DNA of 25,159 nt from a virus: IMG/VR virus record IMGVR_UViG_3300042691_024302, positions 1-25,159 of that record; one strand, written 5' to 3'. A program made the position numbers and the translations under genes. The notes under the pieces are model-generated. The model was not told where the DNA came from. It worked only from the letters and a program-made list of their open reading frames with translations, and made no database searches. Shown here piece after piece: positions 2,152 to 17,422 of the stretch. The stretch's first letter is position 1; every line of letters starts with the position of its first letter.

Positions 2152-3729
2152 ATGTGTGTTGTATGTGTTTCTACAGTTGCTATAGTATCTTTGCTGTCTC
2201 CCAATACAACACCAGTTGTAAAAAATAATATAAATGATTATGTGATTACTAAAACTGCATGTCCAAAATCAAAAGTAAATAAAATTGAAAATAGTCGTAT
2301 TTGTTTAAAAAATGGTAAAGTTTATAGATGGGCAATTAAAAAACCTACTAAGACAACTCCAACACCTACTCCAACACCTACTCCAACTCCAACATCAAAC
2401 AATAATACAGTTTTAACTAAAAATGATGAGTTTAAAAATAATTTTAAATTTTTTGATTCTCTATGTGAAATTGATAATGATATAGATGAATCATTTTTAA
2501 AATATAAAAACAATGTAAAAAATAATGACTGTCACCCTCCGTATAAATTTGTTTCTCAATTTATTGAGTCACAGCCAACAACAATATTATCTAATGATAA
2601 TTTATTTTTACCCACATCATCATGTAATATTGATTCAGACAAGTGGACTACAAGAAAAAATAAATGGCATCCAAATTATACAATAAGAATGATTCCATAT
2701 CAAACTACAGATTTCCCAACATCATCTAATCCAAAAGCCGACTGGTCTTTTGAAATTAAATATCTTCTAGATACTTTTGATAATATTACAGATGTTCCAT
2801 CTAATTATAAGATATTAGTAGATGAAACTTATTATAAAGTTGATGTAAATTTAAAGGATTATGATCTGAGTGGTAAATATATGCATGGAGATCGTGGTGC
2901 ACAGACTAGAGCAAAACAACTTGCTAATAAAATTATATCTATTGCTGATAGCAGCATTGATTTTGGTTCAGTTGATATGATTTATTTTTTACCTCCAAAA
3001 AATGTTCCTAATTCGGTTTTAGGAAATTTTATTTTACCTGGTTTAATTCAAACTCAAGAAAAAATATTTTATGATGGTATTTATATGGGTTCAAAATGGG
3101 ATGATTTTTCTTCAGAGTATTGGAATTCAAGAAATCCGTTTGGATTAATACATGAAATTATTACGCATGTATCAAATACACTAAGTGATTATACTGGAGA
3201 TCAGTTTCATGATAATAAATTAGGGCACTACGGTGTAGGTAACTGGGGAAATAATGCTGGCGGAATTATGGATTTTTTAGGTTTTGATAAATGGCAAGCA
3301 AAATTAATCGCTGACTCACAAGTTTATTGTATTAATTCAAATAAAGAAAATATTATTTGGTTAAGACCACTAACACACAATACTTTTGATAAAAAGTTAG
3401 CAATTATAAAGTTATCAGAAACAAATGCAATAACTATTCAGTCCATGAGATCAAGTGGGTATAACTATAAATTACCAAAAAAGTCAAATGGTGTTTTGGT
3501 TTCAACTGTTGATACAGATGCAGCATATGATAATTCTGTACATGACGACGGACAAGTTGTTTTATGCCCAAAACGCAATAACAGTTATAATATTCATGGC
3601 GGATGTAAGGAAAAAAATCTTTTTGACGCAACATTACAAGTAAATGAAAGTATTATTTATCAAGGATATGAAATTATTGTTCTTGAATCTGGTGAATTTG
3701 GAGATGTTGTTAAAATTAAAAAAATTTGA
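2152..3729 (+). CDS. Secreted M6-like (immune-inhibitor-A-type) metallopeptidase-like protein with Pro-Thr linker
   Basis: A 525-residue protein. Residues 2-16 are hydrophobic (a short signal peptide or anchor). Residues 35-62 (ACPKS...CLKNGKVYRW) resemble a short Cys/Trp segment common in secreted proteins of aquatic Actinobacteria. A Thr-Pro linker (68-81) follows, then a large domain. Around residue 334 is HEIITH, then SDYTGD, then GIMDFLGFDKWQAKL. The order (zinc-site helix, Asp-rich loop, MG-like turn, W/K helix) and a later SNGVLVSTVDTD stretch match the M6 layout. M6 enzymes normally have HExxH, while this has HExxxH, so activity is uncertain. It could digest host surface proteins, act as an adhesin or be a virion-associated peptidase. 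AGGAT at 2136-2140 is the ribosome site. The coding region is much more AT-rich than the lysis genes. Confidence 0.6.
   Translation: MCVVCVSTVAIVSLLSPNTTPVVKNNINDYVITKTACPKSKVNKIENSRICLKNGKVYRWAIKKPTKTTPTPTPTPTPTPTSNNNTVLTKNDEFKNNFKFFDSLCEIDNDIDESFLKYKNNVKNNDCHPPYKFVSQFIESQPTTILSNDNLFLPTSSCNIDSDKWTTRKNKWHPNYTIRMIPYQTTDFPTSSNPKADWSFEIKYLLDTFDNITDVPSNYKILVDETYYKVDVNLKDYDLSGKYMHGDRGAQTRAKQLANKIISIADSSIDFGSVDMIYFLPPKNVPNSVLGNFILPGLIQTQEKIFYDGIYMGSKWDDFSSEYWNSRNPFGLIHEIITHVSNTLSDYTGDQFHDNKLGHYGVGNWGNNAGGIMDFLGFDKWQAKLIADSQVYCINSNKENIIWLRPLTHNTFDKKLAIIKLSETNAITIQSMRSSGYNYKLPKKSNGVLVSTVDTDAAYDNSVHDDGQVVLCPKRNNSYNIHGGCKEKNLFDATLQVNESIIYQGYEIIVLESGEFGDVVKIKKI
2353..2394 (+). repeat. Thr-Pro dipeptide repeat (linker) in the M6-like protein
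   Basis: Alternating ACA/ACT and CCA/CCT codons encode a (Thr-Pro)n run at residues 68-81. Such runs form stiff, often glycosylated linkers between an anchor and an extracellular domain. The 12-nt unit CCAACACCTACT recurs imperfectly, so slipped-strand length change is possible. Confidence 0.8.
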
Positions 3730-3768: not shown

Positions 3769-3842
3769 GGAGCAGTAGCCAAGTTGGTTAAGGCCCCGAA
3801 CTCATAATTCGGCTATCGTAGGTTCGAGTCCTACCTGCTCTA
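3769..3842 (+). tRNA. tRNA with anticodon CAT (elongator Met, or Ile2)
   Basis: A full cloverleaf: acceptor GGAGCAG with CTGCTCT (one G-U pair), D-arm GCC...GGC, anticodon stem CCGAA/TTCGG around loop CTCATAA, T-arm GTAGG-TTCGAGT-CCTAC, and discriminator A. The paired acceptor end and an anticodon stem without three G-C pairs argue against an initiator tRNA. CAT could be read as Met, or as Ile after lysidine modification of the wobble C; the sequence alone does not decide. No CCA is encoded. Confidence 0.9.
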
Positions 3843-3846
3843 CTTT

Positions 3847-3919
3847 GCCCTTGTAGCCCAGTGGTAGAGGCACACGACTTAAAATCGTGCAAGCGTTGGT
3901 TCGAATCCAACCAGGGGCA
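3847..3919 (+). tRNA. tRNA-Leu(TAA) with a short, class I variable loop
   Basis: Acceptor GCCCTTG/CAGGGGC, D-arm GCC...GGC, anticodon stem CACGA/TCGTG around CTTAAAA (anticodon TAA, reading the UUA codon), T-arm GTTGG-TTCGAAT-CCAAC, discriminator A. The variable region is only CAAGC (5 nt), whereas bacterial leucine tRNAs are class II with a long variable arm. The A73 discriminator expected of tRNA-Leu is kept. UUA is frequent in this AT-rich genome and rare in G+C-rich actinobacteria, so supplying this tRNA makes sense. No CCA is encoded. Confidence 0.85.
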
Positions 3920-3922
3920 CGA

Positions 3923-3931
3923 TGGTATACT
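3923..3931 (+). promoter_or_regulatory. Extended -10 promoter (TGG-TATACT)
   Basis: TGG (3923-3925) then TATACT (3926-3931), just after the Leu tRNA and 16 nt before the ATG of the kinase-nucleotidyltransferase gene. A strong Shine-Dalgarno (GGAGGAA, about 3938-3944) lies between, so this message would have a short leader. Confidence 0.6.
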
Positions 3932-3947
3932 TATTATGGAGGAATAA

Positions 3948-4706
3948 ATGATTATACAAATTATAGGATTACCTGGATCTGGTAAAACAGAATTAGCAAA
4001 GGCATTAAAGGAACGTATTAATGCAATTCATATTAATGCAGATGAAGTAAGATCTACGGTTAATTCAGATCTTTCCTTTACTCCCGAAGATAGAATCGAA
4101 CAGGCAAGACGTATGGGAGAAATGGCAAGACTAATTGCCAAACAAAATGTTGCTCCAGTAATTGTAGATTTTGTTTGTCCAACAGATGAAACAAGGAGTG
4201 CATTTGGTTTTGCTGATATTATTGTGTGGGTTGACAGAATAAAGGAAGGAAGGTTTGAGGATACTAACAAACTTTGGAAAGATCCTATAAACTTTCATAT
4301 AAGAATTCTTGAAGGATATACTGTAGAGCAAGAAGTAGACACAGTAATACAGGCTTGTGGTTTGTTTGATTGGTCTGCTCCTACTACTTTGCAACTTGGC
4401 AGATATCAGCCCTGGCATGAGGGTCATCAGACTCTTAAAAACGAGGCACACAAAAGAACTGACCAGGTATTAGTTGGTGTACGAAATACTTATAATACAT
4501 CAGCAAAGGATCCACTAATGTATAATGAAGTTTCGGGGTATATAAAGAAGGACAACCCATACAAAAATACACTAATTCTCAGATTACCAAACATTACTAA
4601 CATTGTTTATGGTCGTGATGTAGGATATAAGATTGAACAAGTAGATTTGGGGGCAGAGATTCATGCTATATCGGCTACACAAAAGCGTAAAGAAATGGGT
4701 TTGTAA
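3948..4706 (+). CDS. Fusion of APS-kinase-like P-loop kinase and HxGH nucleotidyltransferase
   Basis: A 252-residue protein with two domains. Residues 1-140 are a P-loop kinase of the adenylylsulfate-kinase type: Walker A GLPGSGKT (7-14), then an INADEVR segment like the APS-kinase LDGDxxR region. Residues 145-252 are a cytidylyltransferase-fold nucleotidyltransferase: LGRYQPWHEGH (HxGH at 157-160) and a C-terminal ISATQKRKEM corresponding to the ISxTxxR motif. Both active sites look complete. Likely substrates are a small phosphate acceptor for the kinase and transfer of a nucleotidyl group for the second domain, but the real substrate cannot be read. A decayed paralog lies at 15334-16002. 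The gene sits between tRNA groups and has its own promoter. Confidence 0.75.
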   Translation: MIIQIIGLPGSGKTELAKALKERINAIHINADEVRSTVNSDLSFTPEDRIEQARRMGEMARLIAKQNVAPVIVDFVCPTDETRSAFGFADIIVWVDRIKEGRFEDTNKLWKDPINFHIRILEGYTVEQEVDTVIQACGLFDWSAPTTLQLGRYQPWHEGHQTLKNEAHKRTDQVLVGVRNTYNTSAKDPLMYNEVSGYIKKDNPYKNTLILRLPNITNIVYGRDVGYKIEQVDLGAEIHAISATQKRKEMGL

Positions 4707-4739
4707 AATTTTAGATAAAATAGGTAATGATAAAATAGA

Positions 4740-4952
4740 ATGGCCATCATGAACGCAACAAAATCTAGATCTGCAATAAAAGCAATTACATGGAGAATGG
4801 TTGGAACGACAGATACATTTGTTATATCTTGGTTTATTACTAAAAAGCCAGTAGTTGCTGCAAGTATAGCAAGTTTAGAGGTTATTACTAAAACAATTCT
4901 TTATTATTTTCATGAGCGTGGATGGAATAAAATACAATGGGGTAGAAAATAA
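4740..4952 (+). CDS. DUF2061 small membrane protein (copy 1)
   Basis: A 70-residue protein with the DUF2061 pattern: a basic start, KAITWRMVGTTDTFVISWFIT (helix 1), then ASIASLEVITKTILYYFHERGW (helix 2 ending in FHERxW). The family consists of small two-helix membrane proteins of unknown function. A second, diverged copy lies at 14556-14774, also near a kinase-nucleotidyltransferase gene. An alternative ATG nine bases downstream (4749) would remove MAI; neither start has a clear Shine-Dalgarno. The gene is followed 3 nt later by the Arg tRNA. Confidence 0.75.
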   Translation: MAIMNATKSRSAIKAITWRMVGTTDTFVISWFITKKPVVAASIASLEVITKTILYYFHERGWNKIQWGRK

Positions 4953-4955
4953 TAT

Positions 4956-5028
4956 ACCTCTGTAACTCAGTGGATAGAGTAGCGGACTTCTAATCCGTTT
5001 GTCGTTGGTTCAAATCCAATCAGAGGTG
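4956..5028 (+). tRNA. tRNA-Arg(TCT)
   Basis: Acceptor ACCTCTG/CAGAGGT, D-arm with loop AGTGGATAGA, anticodon stem GCGGA/TCCGT around CTTCTAA (anticodon TCT, reading AGA/AGG), T-arm GTTGG-TTCAAAT-CCAAT, discriminator G. AGA is the dominant Arg codon of the AT-rich genes here and rare in G+C-rich actinobacteria. No CCA is encoded. Confidence 0.9.
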
Positions 5029-5042
5029 CTACAATTAAATAT

Positions 5043-5115
5043 TGGTCTGTAGTTCAGTTGGTAGAACACTCGACTGTTAATCGAGATGTCGCAGGATCGA
5101 GACCTGCCAGACCAG
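5043..5115 (+). tRNA. tRNA-Asn(GTT)
   Basis: Acceptor TGGTCTG/CAGACCA, anticodon stem CTCGA/TCGAG around CTGTTAA (anticodon GTT), T-arm GCAGG-ATCGAGA-CCTGC (an A replaces the usual first T of the TTC motif), discriminator G. Asn codons are very frequent in the following island. No CCA is encoded. Confidence 0.9.
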
Positions 5116-5118
5116 CGA

Positions 5119-5127
5119 TGATACAAT
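5119..5127 (+). promoter_or_regulatory. Extended -10 promoter (TGA-TACAAT) for the halogenase
   Basis: TGA (5119-5121) and TACAAT (5122-5127) lie 4 nt after the Asn tRNA and 16 nt before the halogenase start. A clear AAGGAGA Shine-Dalgarno follows at 5134-5140. The halogenase could thus be transcribed on its own as well as by read-through from the tRNA genes. Confidence 0.5.
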
Positions 5128-5143
5128 GATATAAAGGAGAAAA

Positions 5144-6748
5144 GTGTCAGTAGATAAAATAGTAGTTGTAGGTGGAGGATCTGCTGGATGGATGACAGCA
5201 TCTACATTGATAAAAGCCTTTCCTAATAAAAAGATATATGTAATAGAATCTAAAAATGTACCTTTAGTTGGTGTTGGAGAATCAACTTTAGGAGAAATAA
5301 GAAGATGGACAAGGTTTATTGGCTTAAATGAAAAGGATTTTTTTAAACAAACGGACGCATCATATAAATTAAGTATTAAGTTTACTGATTTTTATAAAAA
5401 AGATTCTGGTAGTTTTCATTATCCTTTTGGACAACCAGCAGTAGATAAAAACAGAAATCCATTTCATGATTGGCATATTAAAAAATATATATACCCAGAT
5501 ACTCCAGTTACAGATTTTGTTGAATGTTTATTTCCAGCATCTGCTTTATTTACTCAAAATAAATATTCTCCTAATATTTTAAATAATTTTGATAATTTTG
5601 ATCATACTAATGATGTAGCATATCATTTTGATGCAGTTAAATTTGGAAAATGGTTAAAAGATTTTGTATGTCTTCCTAATGGGGTAAAACATATAGAGTC
5701 AACTGTAATAGATATTCATATCGAAGAGGATTTGGGTATTAAATTTCTTAAATTAGAAAACGGAGAAACTATTACTGCTGATTTATTTATCGATTGCACT
5801 GGCTTTAAAAGTCTTTTACTAGGACAAACTTTAAAAGAACCATTTACTTCATTTGAAAATTTACTTCCAAACAACGGTGCCTGGGCAACAAGAATACCAT
5901 ACAAAAATAAAGAAAAAGAATTAGAGGGATATACAAACTGTACAGCAATAGGAAATGGTTGGTGCTGGAATATACCATTATATTCAAGAATAGGTGCTGG
6001 GTATGTTCATTCAACAAAGTATATTACTAAAGAACAGGCACTTGATGAGTTTAAAGAATATTTAATGTCTAATAAAATGGTTGTTCCTAGAACCAAAGAT
6101 GAGGTTGAAAGTTTGGAATATAGATATATAGATATGCGTGTTGGACTTCACGAAAGAACTTTTGTAAAAAATGTAGTAGCAATAGGACTATCTGCAGGAT
6201 TTATAGAGCCTTTAGAATCTAATGGATTATTTACGGTTCATAAATTTTTATTTAAACTTATAGATATTTTACAAAGAAATGACATAAGCCAATTTGATCG
6301 TGACATGTATAACTCTTCAGCAAAGACTTTATTTGAATCTTTTACTAAATTTGTATCTCTACATTATCTTTTATCTCATAGGGATGATACAGAATACTGG
6401 AAAAATATAAAAAATGGAAATCAAATTAATATTCAAGATGAAGTGTATGATAGATATTATTATAAGTCTGGAGCATTTTATGATTTAGTTCAAAGATATA
6501 TGGATCATGGCAAACATCCATTAGACAGGGCTGGAATAACATACATAGCAACTGGAATGAATTTAAATATGATGAACAACTCAAGGGCAGAAAATGAATA
6601 TTTTACAACAAAAATACCATTAAAACAAATAGCAGATTTCTGTAATGCTGATTGGGAATTAAAAAAACAAAAATGGAAAAATAATGCACAAAATGCTCCA
6701 TCTCTTTATGAATATTTAAAAAATACTTATTTTGACGGACAAGAATAA
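5144..6748 (+). CDS. Flavin-dependent (tryptophan-type) halogenase
   Basis: A 534-residue protein, typical for the family. It has the FAD-binding GGGSAGW (10-16) near the N-terminus, GVGEST (43-48), the catalytic-lysine region DASYKLSIKF (Lys75, equivalent to PrnA Lys79), the signature GWCWNIP (272-278; family GWxWxIP), and EPLESNG (Glu358, equivalent to PrnA Glu346). These enzymes use FADH2, O2 and halide to chlorinate, brominate or iodinate electron-rich substrates; free Trp is only one possibility. Homologs in phages are known (VirX1 of a cyanophage). No flavin reductase is in the window, so reduced flavin would come from the host. A GTG start is chosen because AAGGAGA lies 3 nt before it. 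It sits between two tRNA groups, upstream of the DUF6065-like and oxygenase genes. Confidence 0.9.
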   Translation: MSVDKIVVVGGGSAGWMTASTLIKAFPNKKIYVIESKNVPLVGVGESTLGEIRRWTRFIGLNEKDFFKQTDASYKLSIKFTDFYKKDSGSFHYPFGQPAVDKNRNPFHDWHIKKYIYPDTPVTDFVECLFPASALFTQNKYSPNILNNFDNFDHTNDVAYHFDAVKFGKWLKDFVCLPNGVKHIESTVIDIHIEEDLGIKFLKLENGETITADLFIDCTGFKSLLLGQTLKEPFTSFENLLPNNGAWATRIPYKNKEKELEGYTNCTAIGNGWCWNIPLYSRIGAGYVHSTKYITKEQALDEFKEYLMSNKMVVPRTKDEVESLEYRYIDMRVGLHERTFVKNVVAIGLSAGFIEPLESNGLFTVHKFLFKLIDILQRNDISQFDRDMYNSSAKTLFESFTKFVSLHYLLSHRDDTEYWKNIKNGNQINIQDEVYDRYYYKSGAFYDLVQRYMDHGKHPLDRAGITYIATGMNLNMMNNSRAENEYFTTKIPLKQIADFCNADWELKKQKWKNNAQNAPSLYEYLKNTYFDGQE

Positions 6749-6769
6749 TTGTGATACTATTATAAAAAT

Positions 6770-6846
6770 GGTCCGTTAGTTCAGTTGGTTAGAACGCTAC
6801 CCTGTCACGGTAGAGGTCGTCGGTTCAAGTCCGATACGGATCGCCA
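6770..6846 (+). tRNA. tRNA-Asp(GTC) with encoded CCA
   Basis: Acceptor GGTCCGT/ACGGATC, anticodon stem CTACC/GGTAG around CTGTCAC (anticodon GTC), T-arm GTCGG-TTCAAGT-CCGAT, discriminator G and an encoded 3' CCA (6844-6846). It is the only one of the seven tRNAs that encodes CCA, which suggests a separate origin. It is followed one base later by the Glu tRNA. Confidence 0.92.
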
Positions 6847-6847
6847 A

Positions 6848-6919
6848 GGCACTATCGTCTATCGGCTAGGACATCGCCCTTTCACGGCGGAAAGACGGGT
6901 TCGATTCCCGTTAGTGCTA
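6848..6919 (+). tRNA. tRNA-Glu(TTC)
   Basis: Acceptor GGCACTA/TAGTGCT (first pair G-U), anticodon loop CTTTCAC on a CGCC/GGCG stem (anticodon TTC, reading GAA/GAG), T-arm ACGGG-TTCGATT-CCCGT, discriminator A. It is transcribed with the Asp tRNA. No CCA is encoded. Confidence 0.92.
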
Positions 6920-6925
6920 CAAGTT

Positions 6926-6934
6926 TGCTATAAT
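6926..6934 (+). promoter_or_regulatory. Extended -10 promoter (TGC-TATAAT)
   Basis: TGC (6926-6928) and TATAAT (6929-6934) stand 17 nt upstream of the Thr tRNA. It could drive the Thr tRNA and the following DUF6065-like operon together. No good -35 box is seen. Confidence 0.6.
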
Positions 6935-6951
6935 GGAATAACCAATGGATT

Positions 6952-7023
6952 GCCTCCTTAACTCAGGGGTAGAGTACTCGCCTTGTAAGCGAGATGTCGT
7001 AGGTTCAAATCCTACAGGAGGCT
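6952..7023 (+). tRNA. tRNA-Thr(TGT)
   Basis: Acceptor GCCTCCT/AGGAGGC, anticodon stem CTCGC/GCGAG around CTTGTAA (anticodon TGT, reading ACA), T-arm GTAGG-TTCAAAT-CCTAC, discriminator T. It ends 12 nt before the next ATG, so tRNA processing would free the 5' end of the downstream mRNA. No CCA is encoded. Confidence 0.92.
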
Positions 7024-7035
7024 CAGGAATACAAA

Positions 7036-7704
7036 ATGGAAAAACCAGATATATTACAAAGCAATGATTTTAATTTTAATGTTTGGTATGAGACATACGA
7101 TCCATTATTTTCAGATATTTCAAAAAAATCAAGACTTCCAGAAAAATGGATATCTTATCAATATATAAAAAATAATTATTACAAACAAAGTTTTATAAAA
7201 CCAATTAATAGATATGTTGAAGCACTTTATCCAAAACCAAATCTTATATCTATTAATGATAATACTGTTACATTAAGACAACATAATCATGCAGATTTTT
7301 TTCTTTTAGTAGAAAATAACGGAATATTATATAACTTAGATAGGCCATGGATGAGACAATATTATAATACAAAATATTCTACTGAAATACCAAATGATTG
7401 CTTTAATTATATTTATAAATTTTATACTCCGTGGTATGTCGATTTTGAAGGAAATGTTGAATACAAAAATATCGAAAATTCTCCATTTCATATTTATGAT
7501 ATATCTATAAAGCATAACTCAGTATCTCAGCAACTTAATTATCTAGAACCAAACTTTATTCCTTTTAGTTTTAAAAAAATAGGAGACCACATGGTAGATG
7601 ATGGTTTCGGAAAAATTTTAAGAGGTTCTCCAATGTTTGACATTATATTTAAAGCAGATGATATAATGATTAGTAGAGTCAAGGAGTTTTATGAAAAAAA
7701 TTAA
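7036..7704 (+). CDS. Protein of unknown function, distant relative of the two following DUF6065-like proteins
   Basis: A 222-residue soluble protein, rich in Asn, Tyr, Phe and Ile. I recognise no catalytic motif. Its second half seems to keep landmarks of the next two proteins: FYTPWYVDFEGNVEY corresponds to PYWSVGTPKGYSA, IPFSFKKIGDHMVDDGF to LPFWSFGGFVDTDGF, and LRGSPMFDIIF to KQGTPFIQIIP, in the same order and spacing. It is therefore probably a third, more diverged family member. It overlaps the next gene by 14 nt and starts 12 nt after the Thr tRNA with an AGGA ribosome site. Function is unknown; the company of the halogenase and tailoring enzymes suggests a part in the same process. Confidence 0.65.
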   Translation: MEKPDILQSNDFNFNVWYETYDPLFSDISKKSRLPEKWISYQYIKNNYYKQSFIKPINRYVEALYPKPNLISINDNTVTLRQHNHADFFLLVENNGILYNLDRPWMRQYYNTKYSTEIPNDCFNYIYKFYTPWYVDFEGNVEYKNIENSPFHIYDISIKHNSVSQQLNYLEPNFIPFSFKKIGDHMVDDGFGKILRGSPMFDIIFKADDIMISRVKEFYEKN

Positions 7705-8413
7705 ATTTTATCCATTTAGTGAGTCAATAGTAGATCTTGTTCCAAAACCATCTCCTGCTTCCAGGCATGTGCCAGATTGGTATAAACATCAACCAGGATC
7801 TGTCAATGAAGAACAAGCCTTTTCAAATGGAGCAGGTGGAGCAACAATTAAAAAATGTATGCCAGTATTTGACATGATGACTGCAGGATATATTTTGGGA
7901 TTTCCCTGCGATATTTTTATAGATGCTACCGATCCTAATAAATTAAAATGGTCTACTCCTCAGCCCATGAGGCAGGTAATACCAGATGTAGTATCGCATC
8001 ACTCATTTGAACAATACTCACACTATCCAATTGATACAACACAATACCATAAAGAACTTTTTAGAATATTGCCTTATTGGTCAGTTGGAACTCCTAAAGG
8101 CTATAGCGCTATGTTTATCCATCCAATTCATAGAGATGAACTGCCATTCTGGTCTTTTGGAGGTTTTGTAGATACAGACGGTTTTATATCAGATGGACAT
8201 TTTTCTATGCTTATTAGAAAAAACTTTAAGGGTGTTATAAAACAAGGAACTCCATTTATTCAAATAATTCCAATACAAAGAGAATCTTGGGAAACTGAAT
8301 TAGTTGATCCAAAAGAAGCATCTAAAATATTACAAAAACAAAGAGTAAATGTAAGGGCAAATTTTGTTAATGCATATAAAAATAAATTTAGGAGTAAAAA
8401 AGAATTTAAATGA
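7691..8413 (+). CDS. DUF6065-like protein (copy 1)
   Basis: A 240-residue protein closely related to the next gene. Shared landmarks in order are VPDWY (MLPEWF in the neighbour), TIKKCMPVFDMMTAGY (TKMCMPFLDATTAGY), PYWSVGTPKGYS (WYYETPKGYS), HPIHRDELPFW (HPMNRYDLPFY), FVDTDGF, KNFKGVIKQGTPFIQIIP (RNFRGIIPKGTPIFQIVP) and QRESWE. I take this to be the DUF6065 family by memory of the pattern. It has no signal peptide or membrane segment. Conserved His, Asp, Cys and TPKGY positions would suit a metal- or substrate-binding role, but no reaction is known. A strong AAGGAG precedes the ATG, which overlaps the previous gene by 14 nt. Confidence 0.7.
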   Translation: MKKIKFYPFSESIVDLVPKPSPASRHVPDWYKHQPGSVNEEQAFSNGAGGATIKKCMPVFDMMTAGYILGFPCDIFIDATDPNKLKWSTPQPMRQVIPDVVSHHSFEQYSHYPIDTTQYHKELFRILPYWSVGTPKGYSAMFIHPIHRDELPFWSFGGFVDTDGFISDGHFSMLIRKNFKGVIKQGTPFIQIIPIQRESWETELVDPKEASKILQKQRVNVRANFVNAYKNKFRSKKEFK

Positions 8414-9171
8414 AAGACGATTTACTAAAAATAAAATTTATTCCTGGCTTTATTCCATATAAAAATCATTTAACACCTCCAGAACCAGCAATAAAGATGT
8501 TGCCAGAATGGTTTAGAACTTTGGCACGTCATGATAAATCTAATGACGACAGAACTTTACATCCAGTAAATCACATAGGCGCAGATGGGGCAATGGTTGC
8601 TACAAAAATGTGTATGCCATTTTTAGATGCTACTACAGCAGGATATCATTATTTATTAGAAGACGATTTATATGTAGATTTAGATGAAAATGGAAAACCA
8701 ATACTGTCTTGGAAAGGAGACGTTTTATTAGTTGATGTTAGGCCAACAATAGAATTGCCAGTGCCAGATAATTGTCACCCAATACATTATGGATGGAGAA
8801 TGAATTGGTATTATGAAACTCCTAAAGGATATTCTTGCTTAATTACACACCCAATGAATAGATATGATCTTCCATTTTATGTTCAGTCTGGAATTGTAGA
8901 ATCAGATATTTGGGGATTGCCAGTATTTACTGCATTTTTTTTAAAAAGAAATTTTCGTGGAATTATTCCTAAAGGAACACCAATATTTCAAATAGTACCC
9001 TTTAAAAGAGATAATTGGGAATTAGAAGTTATAGATACTCCAGAAGAGTTGGACAAGCATGAATTGATGGCAGAAAATAGACGATCAAGACTGTATGGTT
9101 ATTATAAACAAACTGCATGGAGAAGAAAAATATTTGGAGTATTCGGAAAGACTGAAAAATATGAAGAATGA
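8410..9171 (+). CDS. DUF6065-like protein (copy 2)
   Basis: A 253-residue paralog of the gene before it, joined by an ATGA overlap. It keeps all landmarks: MLPEWF, KMCMPFLDATTAGY, ETPKGYSCLITHPMNRYDLPFY, RNFRGIIPKGTPIFQIVPFKRDNWE. The N-terminal third differs (an HPVNHIGADGAMVATK insert), so the two may be subunits with different partners rather than redundant copies. The tandem arrangement points to duplication, or to a heteromeric complex. Its 3' end overlaps the following glycosyltransferase by 11 nt, which implies coupled translation. Confidence 0.7.
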   Translation: MKDDLLKIKFIPGFIPYKNHLTPPEPAIKMLPEWFRTLARHDKSNDDRTLHPVNHIGADGAMVATKMCMPFLDATTAGYHYLLEDDLYVDLDENGKPILSWKGDVLLVDVRPTIELPVPDNCHPIHYGWRMNWYYETPKGYSCLITHPMNRYDLPFYVQSGIVESDIWGLPVFTAFFLKRNFRGIIPKGTPIFQIVPFKRDNWELEVIDTPEELDKHELMAENRRSRLYGYYKQTAWRRKIFGVFGKTEKYEE

Positions 9172-10003
9172 TATTGATATTATTATATATTCATATAAAG
9201 GTAAATATGTAAAAGATATTTTACAAAAACTAGATGAATATTCTATGTCTGTAACACTAATAGATCAGCATCCATTAGATAGGAAAAAGATGTTTGATCA
9301 AATGATAAAAAAATATTTACATGTTTTTTGGGATCATCAAAAAAGTCCGTGCAAATATAAAAATAATCAAATTAAAATATCTAACGCTAAATATATAATG
9401 TTATTATCTGATAATGTATTTTTAGAAAAAAATATTATTGATACGTTAATTAATTTTATAGAAACAAATAATTGCATAGTTTCTGGTTTTGGGAAAAATA
9501 AAATAGAAAAAAAAGATTTATTCTCAATAAACCAAAAAAGAGAAAATTCTTTAGATTATACCTTAACAAACTTTATTAATCGTGATTTTATAATTGGGAA
9601 AAATGAACATTTTAAACAGATAGAGTATCCAGAGTTTTTAAAGTATAATGGAGAGGAAGAGTTATTATCTTTACTTTTTTACAATAATAAAATTGATATA
9701 TATTCCGCACCTAATAGTTTTGGCGTTAAGGTTGGTAAAAGAAGCATAGAGGAGATATACTGTCCATTTTCTATTGATCATAAATATAATAAAGTAATAA
9801 AAATATTTAAAGGGGAAATTTATAAAAATTATAACATTTCTAAAGAAATACTTGAAGATTTTAATCGATTCCACAACTTTAATTTTTCAGACCTAAAAGA
9901 ACTTCCATATATTAATGATGATGTTCTTTATGATCAAAATCAACTTGAATTTTTATCCGTAGATGGTAGAAAATTTGTTGAAAAAACAAGGGCCATCCAT
10001 TAA
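9161..10003 (+). CDS. GT-A-type glycosyltransferase-like protein
   Basis: A 280-residue protein. The N-terminus (DIDIIIYSYKGKYVKDILQKL) is a nucleotide-fold beta-alpha unit. It is followed by YLHVFWDHQKSPCKYKNNQIKISNAKYIMLLSDNVFLEKNIIDTLI in one continuous region (about 52-97), which matches the GT-A layout in which an acidic motif at the end of a strand (here SDN, 83-85) binds the metal and nucleotide-sugar. It resembles PF11397/GT60-like enzymes and may be a relative of the clearer transferase at 13571. Only one acidic residue remains in the DxD position, so activity is less certain. Start 9161 is chosen over an upstream in-frame ATG because it gives the usual short overlap with the previous gene and begins at the conserved fold. 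Confidence 0.55.
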   Translation: MKNDIDIIIYSYKGKYVKDILQKLDEYSMSVTLIDQHPLDRKKMFDQMIKKYLHVFWDHQKSPCKYKNNQIKISNAKYIMLLSDNVFLEKNIIDTLINFIETNNCIVSGFGKNKIEKKDLFSINQKRENSLDYTLTNFINRDFIIGKNEHFKQIEYPEFLKYNGEEELLSLLFYNNKIDIYSAPNSFGVKVGKRSIEEIYCPFSIDHKYNKVIKIFKGEIYKNYNISKEILEDFNRFHNFNFSDLKELPYINDDVLYDQNQLEFLSVDGRKFVEKTRAIH

Positions 10004-10012
10004 TGGTATAAT
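10004..10012 (+). promoter_or_regulatory. Extended -10 promoter (TGG-TATAAT)
   Basis: TGG (10004-10006) and TATAAT (10007-10012) overlap and follow the stop of the glycosyltransferase. A Shine-Dalgarno (AGGAG, about 10018-10022) and the ATG of the first 2OG oxygenase (10029) follow. It divides the island into two transcription units. Confidence 0.65.
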
Positions 10013-10028
10013 GTAATAGGAGAATAAT

Positions 10029-10631
10029 ATGCATAGAATAACTGTAATTGAAAATTTTATAACACCAGAAGATGCCAAAACATTAATAGATCAGCAACTG
10101 GATCCGTCCGCCGTCAGGCTTCCTTATCCAAATTACTATAGTGATAGATATGGTGGAACCTCTTTGCCGTATAATCCCACGGTAATGTCAATTTTAAAAA
10201 AATATGGACATAAATCAAATGAAATGCATAAAGCATTAAATGGTTTTAAAAATCCAATGTATGTTTTTAAGGCTTTTGGATCTCACTGGTTGCCTGGTAC
10301 TAAAGGTGACTTGCATATAGATGCACAGGGTCCAGAACCATGGATTGAGTTTAGTACAATAATGTATTTAAATAATGAATCAGAATACGATGGCGGAGTA
10401 ATATATTTCCCAAACCAAGATTTTCAGTATAAGCCTAAACAATATTCTGCAGTGTTTTTTCCTGGTGCTGGAACAGAATATATTCATGGAATAACAACTG
10501 TTACACGTGGCAATAGATTTACTGCTTTATATATGCATACTAGTTTGCCAGAACATGCAGATCCAGATTTTTATGATGGAGTAAAGCCTACAAGGTGGGA
10601 GGCACAGCACTATGACCTTAGACAACATTGA
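10029..10631 (+). CDS. Prolyl-4-hydroxylase-like 2OG-Fe(II) oxygenase (1 of 5)
   Basis: A 200-residue single-domain protein with the double-stranded beta-helix signature. Iron ligands are His96 and Asp98 (GDLHIDAQG) and His153 (YIHGITTV), with Arg163 (NRFTALYMH) for the 2-oxoglutarate carboxylate. STIMYLNNESEYDGGVIYFP is the typical P4H-like strand pair. All four key residues are present, so it should hydroxylate (or otherwise oxidise) a substrate using O2 and 2OG. P4H-like enzymes often act on proline in proteins, but relatives act on other residues and small molecules. It overlaps the next oxygenase by 20 nt, so the pair are probably made together. Confidence 0.85.
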   Translation: MHRITVIENFITPEDAKTLIDQQLDPSAVRLPYPNYYSDRYGGTSLPYNPTVMSILKKYGHKSNEMHKALNGFKNPMYVFKAFGSHWLPGTKGDLHIDAQGPEPWIEFSTIMYLNNESEYDGGVIYFPNQDFQYKPKQYSAVFFPGAGTEYIHGITTVTRGNRFTALYMHTSLPEHADPDFYDGVKPTRWEAQHYDLRQH

Positions 10632-11289
10632 ATATGATATATTAGATTTGGGTTTAGTATATTATAAAAATATATTAAAAGATTCAGAATCTATTATAGA
10701 AAAAGTTAATCAGATTGATTCAAGGTATATGTCTGGAGAACATGGCAATAATTTTACAGAAATGAAACCATGGCATGCATGGCAAAATGAAAGTGCTGGA
10801 ACATATGAAACTTTTTGTTGGCAAAAATTTTTTCCAAAACCACAAGACATAAAATATAATGATTATTATTATTTGGATCAATTAGATATATCAAAAAAAC
10901 TATACGATGCTCTTGACTTGGCAACTGATCATTATAAAAAAATAATTTATCCATTTGCAGATAAAAATATAAAATCTAGAGAATATAATATACATTTATT
11001 AAAATATACTCCTGGAGGATATCTGCCAGCACACCAAGATCAGGGTGTTAGTAGCAGAGTGTTGTCAAGTGTAATGTATTTAAATAATAATTATGTCGGA
11101 GGAGAGATAGAATTTAGACAATCTAAAATTAAAATAAAACCAGAACCTGGCAGTATAATATTTTTCCCATCAAACTTTTTATATGTTCATGAAGTTTATC
11201 CAATTATAAGTGGAGAAAGATATTCAATGCCACACTGGTACCATAATATACCATTTGGCGAGGCAAGAAATTCTACTGGTGCTGAATAA
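10612..11289 (+). CDS. Prolyl-4-hydroxylase-like 2OG-Fe(II) oxygenase (2 of 5)
   Basis: A 225-residue protein with complete active-site residues: His141 and Asp143 (PAHQDQGV), His193 (YVHEVYPI), Arg203 (ERYSMPHWYH), and VMYLNNNYVGGEIEF between. It is only distantly similar to the oxygenase it overlaps, so the pair probably act on different positions or substrates. About 100 residues at the N-terminus precede the core and may set substrate choice. Its stop overlaps the next ATG by one base. The run oxygenase, oxygenase, SGNH hydrolase, carbamoyltransferase, glycosyltransferase is uninterrupted. Confidence 0.85.
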   Translation: MTLDNIEYDILDLGLVYYKNILKDSESIIEKVNQIDSRYMSGEHGNNFTEMKPWHAWQNESAGTYETFCWQKFFPKPQDIKYNDYYYLDQLDISKKLYDALDLATDHYKKIIYPFADKNIKSREYNIHLLKYTPGGYLPAHQDQGVSSRVLSSVMYLNNNYVGGEIEFRQSKIKIKPEPGSIIFFPSNFLYVHEVYPIISGERYSMPHWYHNIPFGEARNSTGAE

Positions 11290-12044
11290 TGATATCTATT
11301 ACGTCAATTGATAAAAAAGAATTAGACGGTTATTGGCATATTACAAGAACTTTTAATAATAACTATAATGATGAATTACAAAATTTACAAATTAAACAAA
11401 AAAATTATAATAAAAATGGAAAAAGTATTTTATTTTCTGGATGTTCCGTAACAGAAGGTTCTAGTGTTAAAGAAAATAATTTATGGGTTAACTTACTTTC
11501 TAGTGAAATAAATAAAAAAATTCCAATAATGAATTCTATAAATATTGCAAAACATGGTAATAGTATATTTGACTCAATTGTAAGTATTTTTTCTTATATA
11601 AAAAATAATAATAAGCCAGACTTTATATTTTTAAATTTACCAAATATTGAAAGAAACTATTTATATTTAGAGGAAAATAAATATGCAACTATTTCGTTTT
11701 CTACAAAAAATAAAAATTCTTTAGACTTATATGCAAAATCATCAATGATACATATACTAAATTATTATTATATGCTAGAAGAATATTGTAGAAAAAGTAA
11801 TATACAATTATTTTCATTTACATGGGATCATGGAATATGGGATCTTAGTACTGCATCTCAATTTAAAGGTTTTAATTTTAATACCTTTCATACTTACAAA
11901 TGGGAAGAACTAACAAATTATATTTATGAATATAAAAGTAGTAAAAATGATCAGTATTATTTAATAGCGGAAGATGGTTATCATCAAGGCAATGCCTACC
12001 ATCATTTTTGGTCTGATTGGATACTAAAGGAAATCTTTAAATGA
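11289..12044 (+). CDS. SGNH/GDSL-type hydrolase (esterase or acyltransferase-like)
   Basis: A 251-residue protein. The block I motif is ILFSGCSVTEGSSV at about 47-60, with Ser nucleophile in GCSVTEG. Block II fits INIAKHGNS with its Gly, and block III is FLNLPN with its Asn. The C-terminal catalytic pair is EDGYHQGNAYH (DxxH), close to the end as expected. SGNH enzymes remove or move acyl groups on sugars, lipids or antibiotics, here probably on the product of neighbouring tailoring genes. No signal peptide is present, so it acts in the cytoplasm. It is translationally coupled to both neighbours. Confidence 0.7.
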   Translation: MISITSIDKKELDGYWHITRTFNNNYNDELQNLQIKQKNYNKNGKSILFSGCSVTEGSSVKENNLWVNLLSSEINKKIPIMNSINIAKHGNSIFDSIVSIFSYIKNNNKPDFIFLNLPNIERNYLYLEENKYATISFSTKNKNSLDLYAKSSMIHILNYYYMLEEYCRKSNIQLFSFTWDHGIWDLSTASQFKGFNFNTFHTYKWEELTNYIYEYKSSKNDQYYLIAEDGYHQGNAYHHFWSDWILKEIFK

Positions 12045-12118
12045 TTAAGAAAATTAAATTTATTATATGGAAATATAAAAATAGAAAAAAATTTAAATTT
12101 AAGGATTTTATATATTAG
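12041..12118 (+). CDS. 25-residue Lys-rich peptide gene
   Basis: A short frame begins with an ATGA overlap on the SGNH gene stop and ends at TAG 12116-12118, 7 nt before the carbamoyltransferase ATG. It encodes a very basic peptide starting MIKKIKFIIWKYK and ending DFIY. The coupled start, the fact that it fills the gap exactly, and my recollection of small basic proteins ending in FIY in other phages support a real gene. It might also be only a leader that couples translation. No function is known. Confidence 0.4.
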   Translation: MIKKIKFIIWKYKNRKKFKFKDFIY

Positions 12119-12125
12119 GAGTTAT

Positions 12126-13571
12126 ATGAAAATTTTAGGAATTAATGAAACTACACATGATGCTTCTATAACACTCATAGAAGATGGAAATATATTATTT
12201 GCTGCTCACGCAGAAAGATTCAGCAAGCAAAAAAATGATTGGTTTACAAATGACGATATTATTAATGAGGCATTGTCTTACGGAAAACCAGATCAACTAG
12301 CCTACTATGAAAATAGATGGCTAAAAAAACTACGCATAATTACTCGTGGTGGTTTTGGCGGAGACAAACCTTATTATCTTGCTAGACCAGATTTAAAATG
12401 GATTCCAAGAGAATCGTTTAGCCATCATCATTCACATGCAGCAGCAGGCTACTATACATCTAAATTTGACAATGCGGTAATTGTAGTATTAGACGCAATT
12501 GGAGAATTTAACACATCCACAGTATGGGTGGGAGAAGGCAGTAATTTAAAGAAAGTATTCACAAAAAATTATCCATTTAGTTTCGGATTATTTTATTCCG
12601 CATTTACTCAATTAGTTGGATTAAAACCAAATGAGGAGGAGTATATTTTTATGGGTATGGCAGCATATGGAGATTGGACTAGATATTATCTAAAAATAAA
12701 GGAATATTTTCCTGATATTCATACTCAAAAATATAATTTTCATAAAGGTATTTTTGACTGGGATGAAGTAATAGATGATCAGGCTAAATTTGATATTGCT
12801 GCTGCTGTTCAAAAAATATATGAAGACCGATTAGTTAATTTTATGTCCATGTCACAAAAACTTACTGGAAAACGTAATCTTGTTTTTATGGGTGGATGTG
12901 CATTAAATTGTGCAGCAAATACAATGCTTTGGAAGATGTTTGATGATGTCTGGATTATGCCCAACCCAGGGGATGCTGGATCGTCGCTTGGAGCGGCTGC
13001 AGCAGCCTATGGAAGCCATATAAATTGGCAGCATCCGTATCTTGGTCATGACCTTGGCGGGGAATACCCAGTAGGACCTATAATTACAGAACTAATAAGA
13101 AATAAAATTGCTGCGGTAGCAACAGGAAGGGCTGAATACGGTCCAAGAGCATTAGGAAACAGAAGTATTCTTGCAGATCCAAGAGATCCAAATATTAAAG
13201 ATAAAGTTAATTTAATTAAAAAAAGAGAGTTGTTTAGACCTTTTGCTCCAGTAGTAATGGAAGAGCATGCAAGTAAATGGTTTGATATGAATTTTACATC
13301 GCCATATATGCAGTATGCAGTCAAATGTTTACAACCAGATAAAATTCCATCTGTTGTACATAAAGATGGTACATCAAGAGTTCAAACTGTAAATAAAAAA
13401 CAGCATCCTGGGCTATATGATGTATTATCAAATTGGTACGCCATGACAGGGGTTCCAGTATTATTAAATACAAGTTTAAATATAAAAGGACAACCACTGT
13501 TAAACGATGAAAATGATATACTTGACTGGGAAAAAGAATATTCTTCTTTAATTATAAGGGGTAAAAATTAA
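12126..13571 (+). CDS. NodU/TobZ-type O-carbamoyltransferase
   Basis: A 481-residue protein with both domains of the family. The N-terminal ASKHA-like domain starts KILGINETTHDASITLIEDG (His11-Asp12) and has the metal/adenylate site SHHHSHAAAGYY (His100-102, His104). Then FMGMAAYGD, FMGGCALNCAANTML and PNPGDAGSSLGAA follow. The C-terminal domain has EYGPRALGNRSILADPR (338-353) and GVPVLLNTSLN. Family enzymes make carbamoyl-adenylate from carbamoyl phosphate and ATP, then transfer carbamoyl to a hydroxyl on a sugar or antibiotic. Slightly short at the C-terminus relative to NodU, but motifs are intact. Phage homologs have been linked to carbamoylated hydroxymethyl-cytosine, so DNA is an alternative target. 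AGGAG lies 6 nt before the ATG. Confidence 0.9.
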   Translation: MKILGINETTHDASITLIEDGNILFAAHAERFSKQKNDWFTNDDIINEALSYGKPDQLAYYENRWLKKLRIITRGGFGGDKPYYLARPDLKWIPRESFSHHHSHAAAGYYTSKFDNAVIVVLDAIGEFNTSTVWVGEGSNLKKVFTKNYPFSFGLFYSAFTQLVGLKPNEEEYIFMGMAAYGDWTRYYLKIKEYFPDIHTQKYNFHKGIFDWDEVIDDQAKFDIAAAVQKIYEDRLVNFMSMSQKLTGKRNLVFMGGCALNCAANTMLWKMFDDVWIMPNPGDAGSSLGAAAAAYGSHINWQHPYLGHDLGGEYPVGPIITELIRNKIAAVATGRAEYGPRALGNRSILADPRDPNIKDKVNLIKKRELFRPFAPVVMEEHASKWFDMNFTSPYMQYAVKCLQPDKIPSVVHKDGTSRVQTVNKKQHPGLYDVLSNWYAMTGVPVLLNTSLNIKGQPLLNDENDILDWEKEYSSLIIRGKN

Positions 13572-14566
13572 TGGATAAAATATTTGTTTCAATAGCAGCA
13601 TGGGAAGACTCTCATTTAATAGATGCAATGAGAAAATTTATAAATACTTCTGATCACCCAAACAGTATAGTTTTTGGACTAGGATTAAATTATGAAGTAG
13701 AACCAGATTTTTCTGAATTTAAAAATAATAACATTAAAATAGTTAGAGATAAAGAAATAGGCGACGGGTTCCCAGGAATTATAGGAATAAGAGAAGCAAT
13801 AAGAAAATTAATAACAGATGAAAAATATTTTATGGGAGTAGACGCACATGTTGATTTAGAAAAAGGATGGGACACAAAATTAAAAAATGATATTGATGAA
13901 TTAACTCAGAATAATGAAAAAATTATAATTTCTAGACAGGCAACTGCAGCCATTTTTGGTAAAAAAAATTACGCAACAGCCTGGAGTTTAAGAGGAGATA
14001 TTATAGAATTTGGTCTTGATGGATATGTTATTGAAGTAGATGAAACATATTTAAAAGAAAAAATGGTTAATAATAAATATTTTAAAAATTATTATGTATC
14101 TTGTAATTTTATTTTTGCTAAAACAAAAGATATAAAAAATATTAATTTCCCTTCTTATCATAAATTTCCATTCGAGGAGCCAGAGCAAAGTCTTGCAATT
14201 TATTGTCATGGCTATGATGTTGTAAGCCCTATAGCAGAAGAAATTTGTCATTATGCTGGAAATGATATTAAATATATGTTTGATCCTGATAAAGGATACA
14301 ACCCAAAGTTTTGGAAACTTTCTGGAAATGATCCAACAATAAAAAATAATTGGAAAAAGATATGGGTTGAAGATGATGACGAAATGAGATTAGAAGTAAA
14401 AAAATTAATGATATTTGGAGAAAATCAATATTATTGCCTTGATAATAAGCGTACAATCAGAGATTTTTATAAACAAATAGGGCAACTTGACAATTATGAA
14501 AAAATCCTGTATGATGGTTTATCAAAACAATACATGTATGCAAAGGGAGATCACAATGGAATCTAA
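13571..14566 (+). CDS. PF11397/GT60-like glycosyltransferase (polypeptide GlcNAc-transferase type)
   Basis: A 331-residue protein with the GT60 layout: IFVSIAAWEDSHLIDAM at the start, VFGLGLNYE, then GFPGIIGIREAI (the position of the family GPxxAR motif) and FMGVDAHVDLEKGWD (DxH at 91-93, the metal/nucleotide-sugar site). Later, FPFEEPEQSLAIYCHGYDVVSP matches the conserved acceptor-side acidic segment. The best known family member adds GlcNAc to hydroxyproline of the eukaryotic protein Skp1, after a prolyl 4-hydroxylase has acted; bacterial and viral members are mostly unstudied. The gene overlaps the carbamoyltransferase by one base and the next DUF2061 by 11, closing the island. Confidence 0.75.
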   Translation: MDKIFVSIAAWEDSHLIDAMRKFINTSDHPNSIVFGLGLNYEVEPDFSEFKNNNIKIVRDKEIGDGFPGIIGIREAIRKLITDEKYFMGVDAHVDLEKGWDTKLKNDIDELTQNNEKIIISRQATAAIFGKKNYATAWSLRGDIIEFGLDGYVIEVDETYLKEKMVNNKYFKNYYVSCNFIFAKTKDIKNINFPSYHKFPFEEPEQSLAIYCHGYDVVSPIAEEICHYAGNDIKYMFDPDKGYNPKFWKLSGNDPTIKNNWKKIWVEDDDEMRLEVKKLMIFGENQYYCLDNKRTIRDFYKQIGQLDNYEKILYDGLSKQYMYAKGDHNGI

Positions 14567-16007: not shown

Positions 16008-16421
16008 ATGTATGAATACAGAATAAAAAAAATTACTGGAGTAGTAGATGGAGACACCATAGATGTAGATATAGATTTAGGGTTTAATGTTTCGTTCTCT
16101 CAAAGAGTAAGGCTTGCTGGAATTGATACCCCTGAATCTAGAACTTCAGATAAATTTGAAAAAGCACTTGGTCTTGAAGCAAAAGAATATCTTAAATCAA
16201 AACTTAAAGATGCAAAACAAATTATTATTAAAACAGAAAAACCAGATTCATCTGAAAAATATGGACGTATATTGGGATGGCTTTATGTAGATAATAATAC
16301 TGTATCTATTAATGATCAGATGATCGAAGATGGATATGCCTGGGGATATCTTGGAGAAACAAAGATTAAAGACTTTTCCGTACTTGCCAAACAAAGAGAA
16401 ATGTCAAAAAATAAAAAATGA
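16008..16421 (+). CDS. Staphylococcal-nuclease-like (SNase/thermonuclease) protein
   Basis: A 137-residue OB-fold nuclease. VVDGDTIDVDIDLGF carries the calcium-binding Asp16 (equivalent to SNase Asp21), RVRLAGIDTPE carries Arg35, Asp40 and Glu43, and KYGRILGWLYV carries Arg87. All catalytic residues are present. It should cut DNA or RNA with calcium. No signal peptide is seen, so it acts in the infected cell, perhaps in host DNA breakdown or nucleotide recycling. It overlaps the next oxygenase by 4 nt (ATGA). Confidence 0.85.
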   Translation: MYEYRIKKITGVVDGDTIDVDIDLGFNVSFSQRVRLAGIDTPESRTSDKFEKALGLEAKEYLKSKLKDAKQIIIKTEKPDSSEKYGRILGWLYVDNNTVSINDQMIEDGYAWGYLGETKIKDFSVLAKQREMSKNKK

Positions 16422-17095
16422 AAACAATAAATGATTCTTTTAAACCAAATTATAGATTAGTAAAAAACTTTTTATCTGAAGATGATTGTTTATCTATAAT
16501 TAATGATGCAAATAAATCTGGAGAAGACTTATGGCTTATTGATTTTGACTTGCATTATCCAAAACAAGAGGAAGTAACTGCAGATTATTGGACAGCGATA
16601 AAAGATTGGCAAGGAATGTCTTTAAATTTAGATATGCCAAACTGGGAATTGACATATTCTCTTGATAAAAATAAATATACTAACATATTATCGTTAGCCC
16701 AAGAGCAAATTGAAGATCGTTTTAAAGTAAAAGTTTTTAAAGAACAATTTTTGATAAGTAGATGGCGTGAAGGAAGAGATCAGAAGCCTCACATTGATTA
16801 TTTAAAAGATGAAGAGGATAACAATATAAAAGATTTATATAGTGTTGGTATGAATGATGATTTTATTGATCAGTTTAAAGAAAGATTTAAAACAAAACAT
16901 TACTCAACAATCATTTATTTAAATGATAACTTCGATGGTGGTGAGTTATATTTTCCGCAATACAATAATTTAACACTTAAGCCAGAAACTGGTATGATGA
17001 TTTGTTTTAAGGGAGATACCCACCACTTGCACGGAGTAAAAGAAATTATAAGAAACATAAGGTACACAATATCTATTTTTTGGACGGAGATATAA
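16418..17095 (+). CDS. Prolyl-4-hydroxylase-like 2OG-Fe(II) oxygenase (3 of 5)
   Basis: A 225-residue protein: KPHIDYL (His125, Asp127), THHLHGVKEI (His205), NIRYTISIFW (Arg215), with STIIYLNDNFDGGELYFP between. A longer insert (about 130-160) separates the HxD from the strand pair compared with the other copies. Active-site residues are complete. It lies outside the halogenase island, next to the nuclease, so it may have a different substrate. It is translationally coupled to the nuclease gene. Confidence 0.85.
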   Translation: MKTINDSFKPNYRLVKNFLSEDDCLSIINDANKSGEDLWLIDFDLHYPKQEEVTADYWTAIKDWQGMSLNLDMPNWELTYSLDKNKYTNILSLAQEQIEDRFKVKVFKEQFLISRWREGRDQKPHIDYLKDEEDNNIKDLYSVGMNDDFIDQFKERFKTKHYSTIIYLNDNFDGGELYFPQYNNLTLKPETGMMICFKGDTHHLHGVKEIIRNIRYTISIFWTEI

Positions 17096-17096
17096 T

Positions 17097-17411
17097 ATGG
17101 AAGAAATAGACAAATTAATTTTGGCTGGAGCAATTGAGGCAGCAGGAATAGATTCTGATACTGGAGAAATTTTATACAGTTTTACCAATAAGTTAGAAAC
17201 TGTTAGTCCAGTATTGCACAATGCTGCCATGAACTATTTTGCTATTCATGCACTAAAACTATGGGAAATGGGTTTTATAAATATGGATGTAACAGAAAAA
17301 AATCCCCTAATATCATTAACAAAATTAGCATTTAATGAAAAAAGGGTAGGAGAGTTAGAAAAAGAAATACAAATGACTCTTAAAGAAATTAAAAGAAACC
17401 TAATGGAATAG
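17097..17411 (+). CDS. Small protein of unknown function
   Basis: A 104-residue soluble protein, predicted to be mostly helical, with a C-terminal charged helix (ELEKEIQMTLKEIKRNL) that may form a coiled coil. A DSDTGEILYSFTNK segment sits near the start. It begins one base after the previous stop, with GGAG just upstream, so it belongs to the same transcript. I recognise no family or motif. Confidence 0.65.
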   Translation: MEEIDKLILAGAIEAAGIDSDTGEILYSFTNKLETVSPVLHNAAMNYFAIHALKLWEMGFINMDVTEKNPLISLTKLAFNEKRVGELEKEIQMTLKEIKRNLME

Positions 17412-17416
17412 AGTAG

Positions 17417-17422
17417 TATAAT
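17417..17422 (+). promoter_or_regulatory. -10 box (TATAAT) for the following gene
   Basis: A perfect TATAAT lies 10 nt upstream of the ATG at 17433, in a 21-nt gap between genes. No TGn extension, no clear -35 and no Shine-Dalgarno are seen, so the message would have an extremely short leader. Confidence 0.45.

Follow-up and report, generated by a model that had tools for sequence, protein, structure and literature searches.

Enzyme sets similar to those considered here are known in cyanophages (PMC3037559, PMC7824862), and groups of 2-oxoglutarate (2OG) oxygenases are known in pelagiphages (PMC9599517). One of them, the S-SSM6a-type cluster of cyanophages described by Iyer et al. in 2021 (PMC7824862), contains a halogenase, carbamoyltransferases, 2OG oxygenases and sugar genes. 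Members of the Kyanoviridae (Syn9/Syn10, S-CREM1, S-RIM44, Sf-FR1, P-TIM40) carry arrays in which a halogenase and a DUF6065-like protein are encoded by the side of multiple 2OG oxygenases, adjoining tail-fibre or collagen-like genes. In Dictyostelium, a prolyl 4-hydroxylase (P4H) and then a GT60 glycosyltransferase act on Skp1 in the PhyA/Gnt1 pathway, the latter on hydroxyproline (PMC3515798). The 25 kb fragment of a viral genome analysed here (record IMGVR_UViG_3300042691_024302, positions 1 to 25,159; hereafter the window) harbours at 7036–11289 a cassette encoding DUF6065-like proteins and a remote relative (D1–D3), a GT60-like protein and two P4H-type 2OG-Fe(II) oxygenases (P4Ha and P4Hb).

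As in the S-SSM6a cluster, a flavin halogenase, a carbamoyltransferase, several 2OG oxygenases and sugar genes are found in one phage region, and the two regions are also alike in lying downstream of large structural-looking genes. Unlike in that cluster, the halogenase of the window stands apart in a tRNA array and is not part of a linked unit, the core has DUF6065-like and GT60-like proteins, the host is probably actinobacterial and the phage is not T4-like. The initial annotation of the window had regarded its gene combination as undescribed, which holds only narrowly in view of the 2021 cluster. With the Kyanoviridae arrays the window shares a halogenase of the same family and a DUF6065-like protein; there the two genes are adjacent, whereas in actinophages they are unlinked, and neither GT60 nor carbamoyltransferase was detected in the Kyanoviridae array. 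Pairing of a P4H-type oxygenase with a PF11397 (GT60) transferase likens the cassette to the Skp1 pathway, whose target, unlike here, is a cytosolic eukaryotic protein.

A conserved cassette at a composite locus

The cassette comprises the following genes:

7036–7704, + strand: D1, cassette gene predicted to form a beta fold and distantly related to D2/D3 (AlphaFold pLDDT 91; hhalign 68% to D2)
7691–8413, + strand: D2, DUF6065-like (phrog_7084), predicted by family to have a dUTPase/dCTP-deaminase-type fold
8410–9171, + strand: D3, DUF6065-like, modelled, with a predicted dUTPase/dCTP-deaminase fold from PDB structure matches
9161–10003, + strand: GT60-like protein (GT9095, its open reading frame beginning at 9095), with an unconserved DxD position and uncertain catalysis
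10029–10631, + strand: P4Ha, 2OG-Fe(II) oxygenase, putatively of the prolyl-hydroxylase type, with complete Fe and 2OG ligands
10612–11289, + strand: P4Hb, 2OG-Fe(II) oxygenase (PF13640), with complete ligands

Viral contigs were scanned separately with the halogenase, the carbamoyltransferase, D2 and P4Ha as baits, which yielded about 190 loci. The scan keyed on P4Ha provided 25 distinct contexts with full flanks, in which neighbours were counted within 6 kb. P4Hb was present in 23 of them, and D1, D2/D3 and GT9095 in 22 each. The carbamoyltransferase followed with 21, an SGNH-type gene with 14 and a second GT60-like gene (GT13571) with 3; the halogenase was found in none. Gene order was identical in about 45 of the 53 loci found via one member as bait, and conservation of the block was far from chance. 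Pairwise distances over 26 loci (Mantel test; since the loci are related, the correlations are descriptive) gave r values of 0.94 for D1 with D3, 0.84 for D3 with GT9095, 0.80 for D1 with GT9095 and 0.70 for P4Ha with P4Hb, against 0.19–0.56 for cassette genes with the backbone gene at 1398 and 0.3–0.6 with backbone genes taken together. The 7036–11289 segment is thus a conserved, co-diverging cassette.

Around it lie the following features:

3769–7024, + strand: tRNA array (Met, Leu, Arg, Asn, Asp, Glu, Thr) holding genes 3948, 4740 and the halogenase; a separate mobile unit
5144–6748, + strand: flavin-dependent halogenase (VirX1 type), carried by the tRNA array as cargo and outside the cassette
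11289–12044, + strand: candidate SGNH-type hydrolase/acyltransferase, optional
12126–13571, + strand: O-carbamoyltransferase of the TobZ/NodU type, linked to the backbone
13571–14566, + strand: GT60-like glycosyltransferase (GT13571; PF11397, DxH conserved), optional

All ten open reading frames named in the initial annotation, from the halogenase to GT13571, were found intact where it had placed them. Their near-continuous spacing was also confirmed, save for 81 nt preceding 12126; the halogenase does lie upstream, but 287 nt and three tRNA genes separate it from 7036. The tRNA genes of the window run Met, Leu, (kinase-like gene 3948), Arg, Asn, Asp, Glu, Thr; the array also includes a DUF2061-like gene (4740), and the halogenase sits between tRNA-Asn and tRNA-Asp. 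Two relatives (G016 and G045) have a 72–73% identical halogenase in the same Asn/Asp slot and the same tRNA order, with the array about 13–18 kb away from the cassette. In L002, the tRNA-Asn, halogenase and tRNA-Asp segment aligned contiguously with the window at 79% DNA identity, and in L040 and L042 tRNA-Asn stands directly beside tRNA-Asp, without a halogenase. The halogenase is therefore a separate mobile cargo gene of the tRNA array and not a member of the cassette.

The carbamoyltransferase behaved differently again, its distances correlating at 0.81 with those of gene 1398 and at 0.29–0.58 with those of the cassette genes. Two relatives, L059 and L060, align with the window at 88% along 1–2150 and at about 82% along the carbamoyltransferase gene; missing from them are 2.4–12.1 kb of the window, the cassette included, and the 13571 gene, so the site is variable. 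The carbamoyltransferase thus tracks the backbone and is a neighbour of the cassette, not a member. Because of the halogenase/tRNA arrangement in G016, G045, L002, L040 and L042 and the alignment of L059 and L060, we conclude that three units are joined here: the tRNA array with the halogenase, the cassette, and the backbone carbamoyltransferase. The initial annotation had proposed one pathway for the ten genes and had suggested checking whether they move as a block; only the cassette does so, and the single pathway is not supported, with the SGNH and second GT60-like genes being optional.

Proteins of the cassette and its neighbours

The initial annotation had recognised three DUF6065-like proteins. 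D2 and D3 do belong to one family with phrog_7084, of which 22 of the 49 members reach DUF6065 (PF19541) at E ≤ 0.01, but the window copies fall below its cut-off (E 0.15 for D3), and D1 gave no PF19541 profile match, its similarity to D2 being remote. AlphaFold models of D1 and D3 (pLDDT 85 for the latter) were built from family alignments. The top 50 PDB matches of the D3 model all belonged to the dUTPase/dCTP-deaminase superfamily, with probabilities mostly of 0.9–1.0, moderate TM-scores (0.37–0.58 on target) and E-values >0.001, suggesting that D3 shares this fold; a Foldseek search of D3 against viral models returned chiefly unnamed phage proteins. D1 gave no confident structural match, with a weak dUTPase match only. 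The predicted D3 fold and its glycine-rich motif positions are like those of the superfamily, and the motif order TAGY, TPxGYS, SGIVDTD, KGTPxxQxIPFKR appears by eye to resemble dUTPase motifs 1–4. Unlike dUTPases, D3 lacks the motif-3 Tyr, and its sequence matched neither PF00692 (at E ≤ 0.1) nor any PDB chain. The possibility that D1–D3 are 2OG oxygenases was rejected, no profile similarity being found. A search of bacterial genomes confirmed no DUF6065-like relatives. In the haloarchaeal Hafunaviridae, a lone DUF6065-like gene adjoins tail-fibre/adhesin genes (Halorubrum and Haloarcula viruses L222 and L223).

Both proteins annotated as glycosyltransferases belong to the PF11397 (GT60) superfamily and are homologous (hhalign 98% between families), but only GT13571 reaches the profile cut-off. 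This is the family associated in Dictyostelium with the PhyA/Gnt1 pathway, in which N-acetylglucosamine is added to hydroxyproline. GT13571 scored 55.4 bits against a cut-off of 21 and its metal-binding DxH (D91/H93) is invariant in 11 homologues, as in a GT60 enzyme; no solved relative of it was found by sequence. GT9095, which judging from an alignment with homologues probably begins at ATG 9161, has no direct PF11397 match in the window, although 15 of the 33 members of the joint alignment do. At least three GT60-like genes occur in one actinophage relative (L039/G003), one of them with the strongest PF11397 match seen.

P4Ha has no Pfam match, but H96/D98/H153/R163 are invariant, and P4Hb carries H141/D143/H193/R203; every Fe and 2OG ligand is kept across 40–42 homologues, which places both in the 2OG-Fe(II) superfamily. 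Similarity to P4H, P3H and PKHD hydroxylases is weak, and we regard them as putative prolyl-hydroxylase-type oxygenases. Three further P4H-type oxygenases are encoded at 16418–17095, 22295–22930 and 24022–24747, five in total in 25 kb. An unnamed family with a PHKFFE start and an HDH...H...R pattern (L227:17779-18438, L218:6210-6878) looks like a further 2OG oxygenase; its genes shift between the tail module and the cassette.

The remaining assignments of the initial annotation stood. The SGNH candidate lacks any Pfam or PHROG family match, yet block I Ser53 and block V Asp229/His232 are invariant in 78 homologues, as in SGNH enzymes. The carbamoyltransferase has both the N- and C-terminal domains of an O-carbamoyltransferase (PF16861/PF02543), and H100, H104, D123, D283 and GPRALGNR are invariant. 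By profile (PF04820, E 1.8e-102), motifs and full-length similarity (E 1.2e-97 to the solved VirX1 structure 6qgm), 5144–6748 encodes a flavin-dependent tryptophan halogenase of the VirX1 type, with GGGxxG, K75, WxWxxP (W273xW275) and E355 conserved in 39 homologues. Compared with VirX1 of cyanophage Syn10, the match is full-length with the same motifs, but identity to the two Syn10 halogenases is only about 36–38%.

Candidate targets of the cassette

Our preferred explanation, plausible but held tentatively, is that in tailed phages of about 100–125 kb infecting aquatic actinobacteria the cassette chemically modifies a protein that the phage itself makes, most likely one exposed on the virion such as a tail fibre. 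The two oxygenases would hydroxylate side chains, and a GT60-like transferase (GT9095 if active, or GT13571) would put a sugar on the new hydroxyl, much as Gnt1 acts after PhyA on Skp1. D1–D3 could be partners, perhaps a hetero-oligomer binding substrate or nucleotide, and the sugar might be trimmed or capped by the backbone carbamoyltransferase and, if present, the SGNH protein. In this scheme we infer the virion-protein substrate, the sequence of the reactions, the part played by D1–D3 and the sugar.

The evidence on the target comes from tail modules. In a 100 kb relative (G003), two collagen-domain genes (PF01391) matching tail-fibre PHROGs are followed by a P4H (6714–7331) beside a GT60 (7350–8276, PF11397 E 4e-52) and then by a D2-like/D3-like pair (16287–17770), ahead of large structural-module genes. 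P4H genes lie about 1–6 kb from collagen-like genes in G003, G004, G005 and G034, and G037 has, between cassette and carbamoyltransferase, a gene that weakly matches tail fibres and includes a short collagen-like stretch. Among cyanophages, a DUF6065-like gene was found in 15 records, which include same-species isolates and amount to about seven distinct phages, and it was directly downstream of the halogenase in 14 of the 15, with 2OG oxygenase genes coming next; in S-CREM1, Sf-FR1 and S-RIM44, this array is surrounded by collagen-like, tail-fibre or neck genes. Because P4H, GT60 and DUF6065-like genes occur in tail modules and a P4H/GT60 pathway operates in Dictyostelium, a virion protein, one of the scaffolds suggested in the initial annotation, appears to be the best-supported target. 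The halogenase may act on a target similar to that of the cassette.

Several observations weigh against this explanation. In most relatives the neighbours of the cassette are genes for lysis and a protease function, with the collagen-like genes tens of kb away; the DxD position of GT9095 varies among homologues; and the dUTPase fold fits nucleotides better than proteins. Moreover, proline in the collagen-like repeats is chiefly at X (44 of 107 triplets; Y, 13), so classical 4-hydroxylation of collagen Y-position proline is not indicated and was discarded as a candidate. Rather doubtful, in our estimate, is the wider proposition that bacteriophages possess a hydroxylation-dependent glycosylation of their own tail fibres by a prolyl-hydroxylase-type oxygenase and a GT60 transferase, with tandem dUTPase-fold proteins as non-nucleotide partners and halogenation as an alternative or addition in cyanophages.

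It is less probable, though worth weighing, that during infection the cassette alters a polymer which the host secretes or a glycan of its cell surface, perhaps as a barrier to superinfection. TobZ/NodU-type carbamoyltransferases act on sugars, sugar-type genes (GT61, nucleotidyltransferase/HAD, cupin) at 18697–21190 co-occur in several relatives, and the carbamoyltransferase of S-CAM1 (L225) adjoins heptose biosynthesis genes and a tail-fibre-like gene. Polysaccharide decoration or a secondary metabolite was proposed for the cyanophage cluster by Iyer et al. (PMC7824862). However, two P4H-type oxygenases with GT60-like transferases suit proteins better, the block has no membrane-anchored polymerase or flippase, and the homologous P4H, GT60 and DUF6065-like genes are within virion tail modules.

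Hypermodification of DNA bases, in which D1–D3 would act on nucleotides and the oxygenases would hydroxylate the base before addition of sugar or carbamoyl, seems distinctly unlikely. TET-carbamoyltransferase hypermodification of DNA exists in phages, the predicted D3 fold would suit such a role, and the DUF6065-like protein of S-CREM1 is annotated as a triphosphate nucleotidohydrolase. Nevertheless, in 14 records of this phage group, mostly incomplete or fragmentary, we found no C5 methyltransferase, thymidylate synthase or dUTPase-family protein and only below-cut-off Tet_JBP matches, on P4H genes; the TET/JBP and C5 methyltransferase pair of phage TET-type 5-methylcytosine hypermodification was thus not found in them, which makes a DNA base the less likely target. 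The oxygenases are also closer to prolyl/PKHD hydroxylases.

That the genes are unrelated cargo without a common substrate, gathered at a hypervariable site, is improbable for the core: D1–D3, GT9095, P4Ha and P4Hb hold their order and co-diverge more with one another than with the backbone, even though the site is variable, as L059 and L060 attest, and SGNH, P4H and GT60 paralogues are scattered. For the halogenase, SGNH and GT13571 genes, random cargo is the likely status at this locus. Least probable is a single natural-product-like pathway of the whole island, halogenase included, for a small molecule or peptide: its chemistry resembles antibiotic tailoring, the cyanophage cluster has been so interpreted (PMC7824862), cyanophages have the halogenase gene next to the DUF6065-like one and a P4H-like gene lies near 22 of 34 halogenase loci, but a scaffold-making enzyme is missing and the halogenase travels with tRNAs and was absent around the block in all 25 complete relatives, so that a ten-gene pathway was rejected on neighbourhood evidence.

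The phage, its other genes and significance

One further feature bears on the host:

18404–18697, + strand: WhiB-like factor (PF02467, E 1.7e-11), pointing to an actinobacterial host

WhiB-like proteins are a marker in use for actinophages (PMC6802176). A 123 kb relative has a portal protein sharing 46% identity with those of Streptomyces phages of about 128 kb such as Jada and Gilson, and tape-measure-sized genes were seen in relatives. These three features make it probable that the phage is a large siphovirus whose host is an aquatic actinobacterium.

Elsewhere in the window, GT61, nucleotidyltransferase/HAD, cupin-like and GDPD-like genes at 18697–21627 form a second variable sugar-type module, common to several relatives. 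The small protein encoded at 1398–1931 (start MTCIAVVRD) looks by eye like an HslV-like N-terminal nucleophile hydrolase, without a Pfam match; its homologues in relatives are commonly directly upstream of the cassette or the carbamoyltransferase. A secreted-looking protein at 2152–3729 has a (TP)n tract, repetitive in L059 and L060 too, and a HEIITH motif, and is possibly a metallopeptidase. The idea that this tract is the substrate was set aside; relatives share only about 32% of the protein.

Against the literature searched, the actinophage cassette and its separation from halogenase and carbamoyltransferase appear to be new, as do the predicted dUTPase-like fold of DUF6065-like proteins, the link of GT60 and P4H to collagen-like tail genes and the adjacency of halogenase and DUF6065-like genes in cyanophages. 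Aquatic phage genomes are rich in 2OG oxygenases, halogenases, carbamoyltransferases and DUF6065 proteins without an assigned target, VirX1 likewise having no assigned natural substrate, and gene neighbourhoods suggest one answer open to testing, the virion fibre proteins. If this proves true, bacteriophages would perform a type of protein modification described chiefly in eukaryotes and giant viruses, and a widespread fold family would gain a function.

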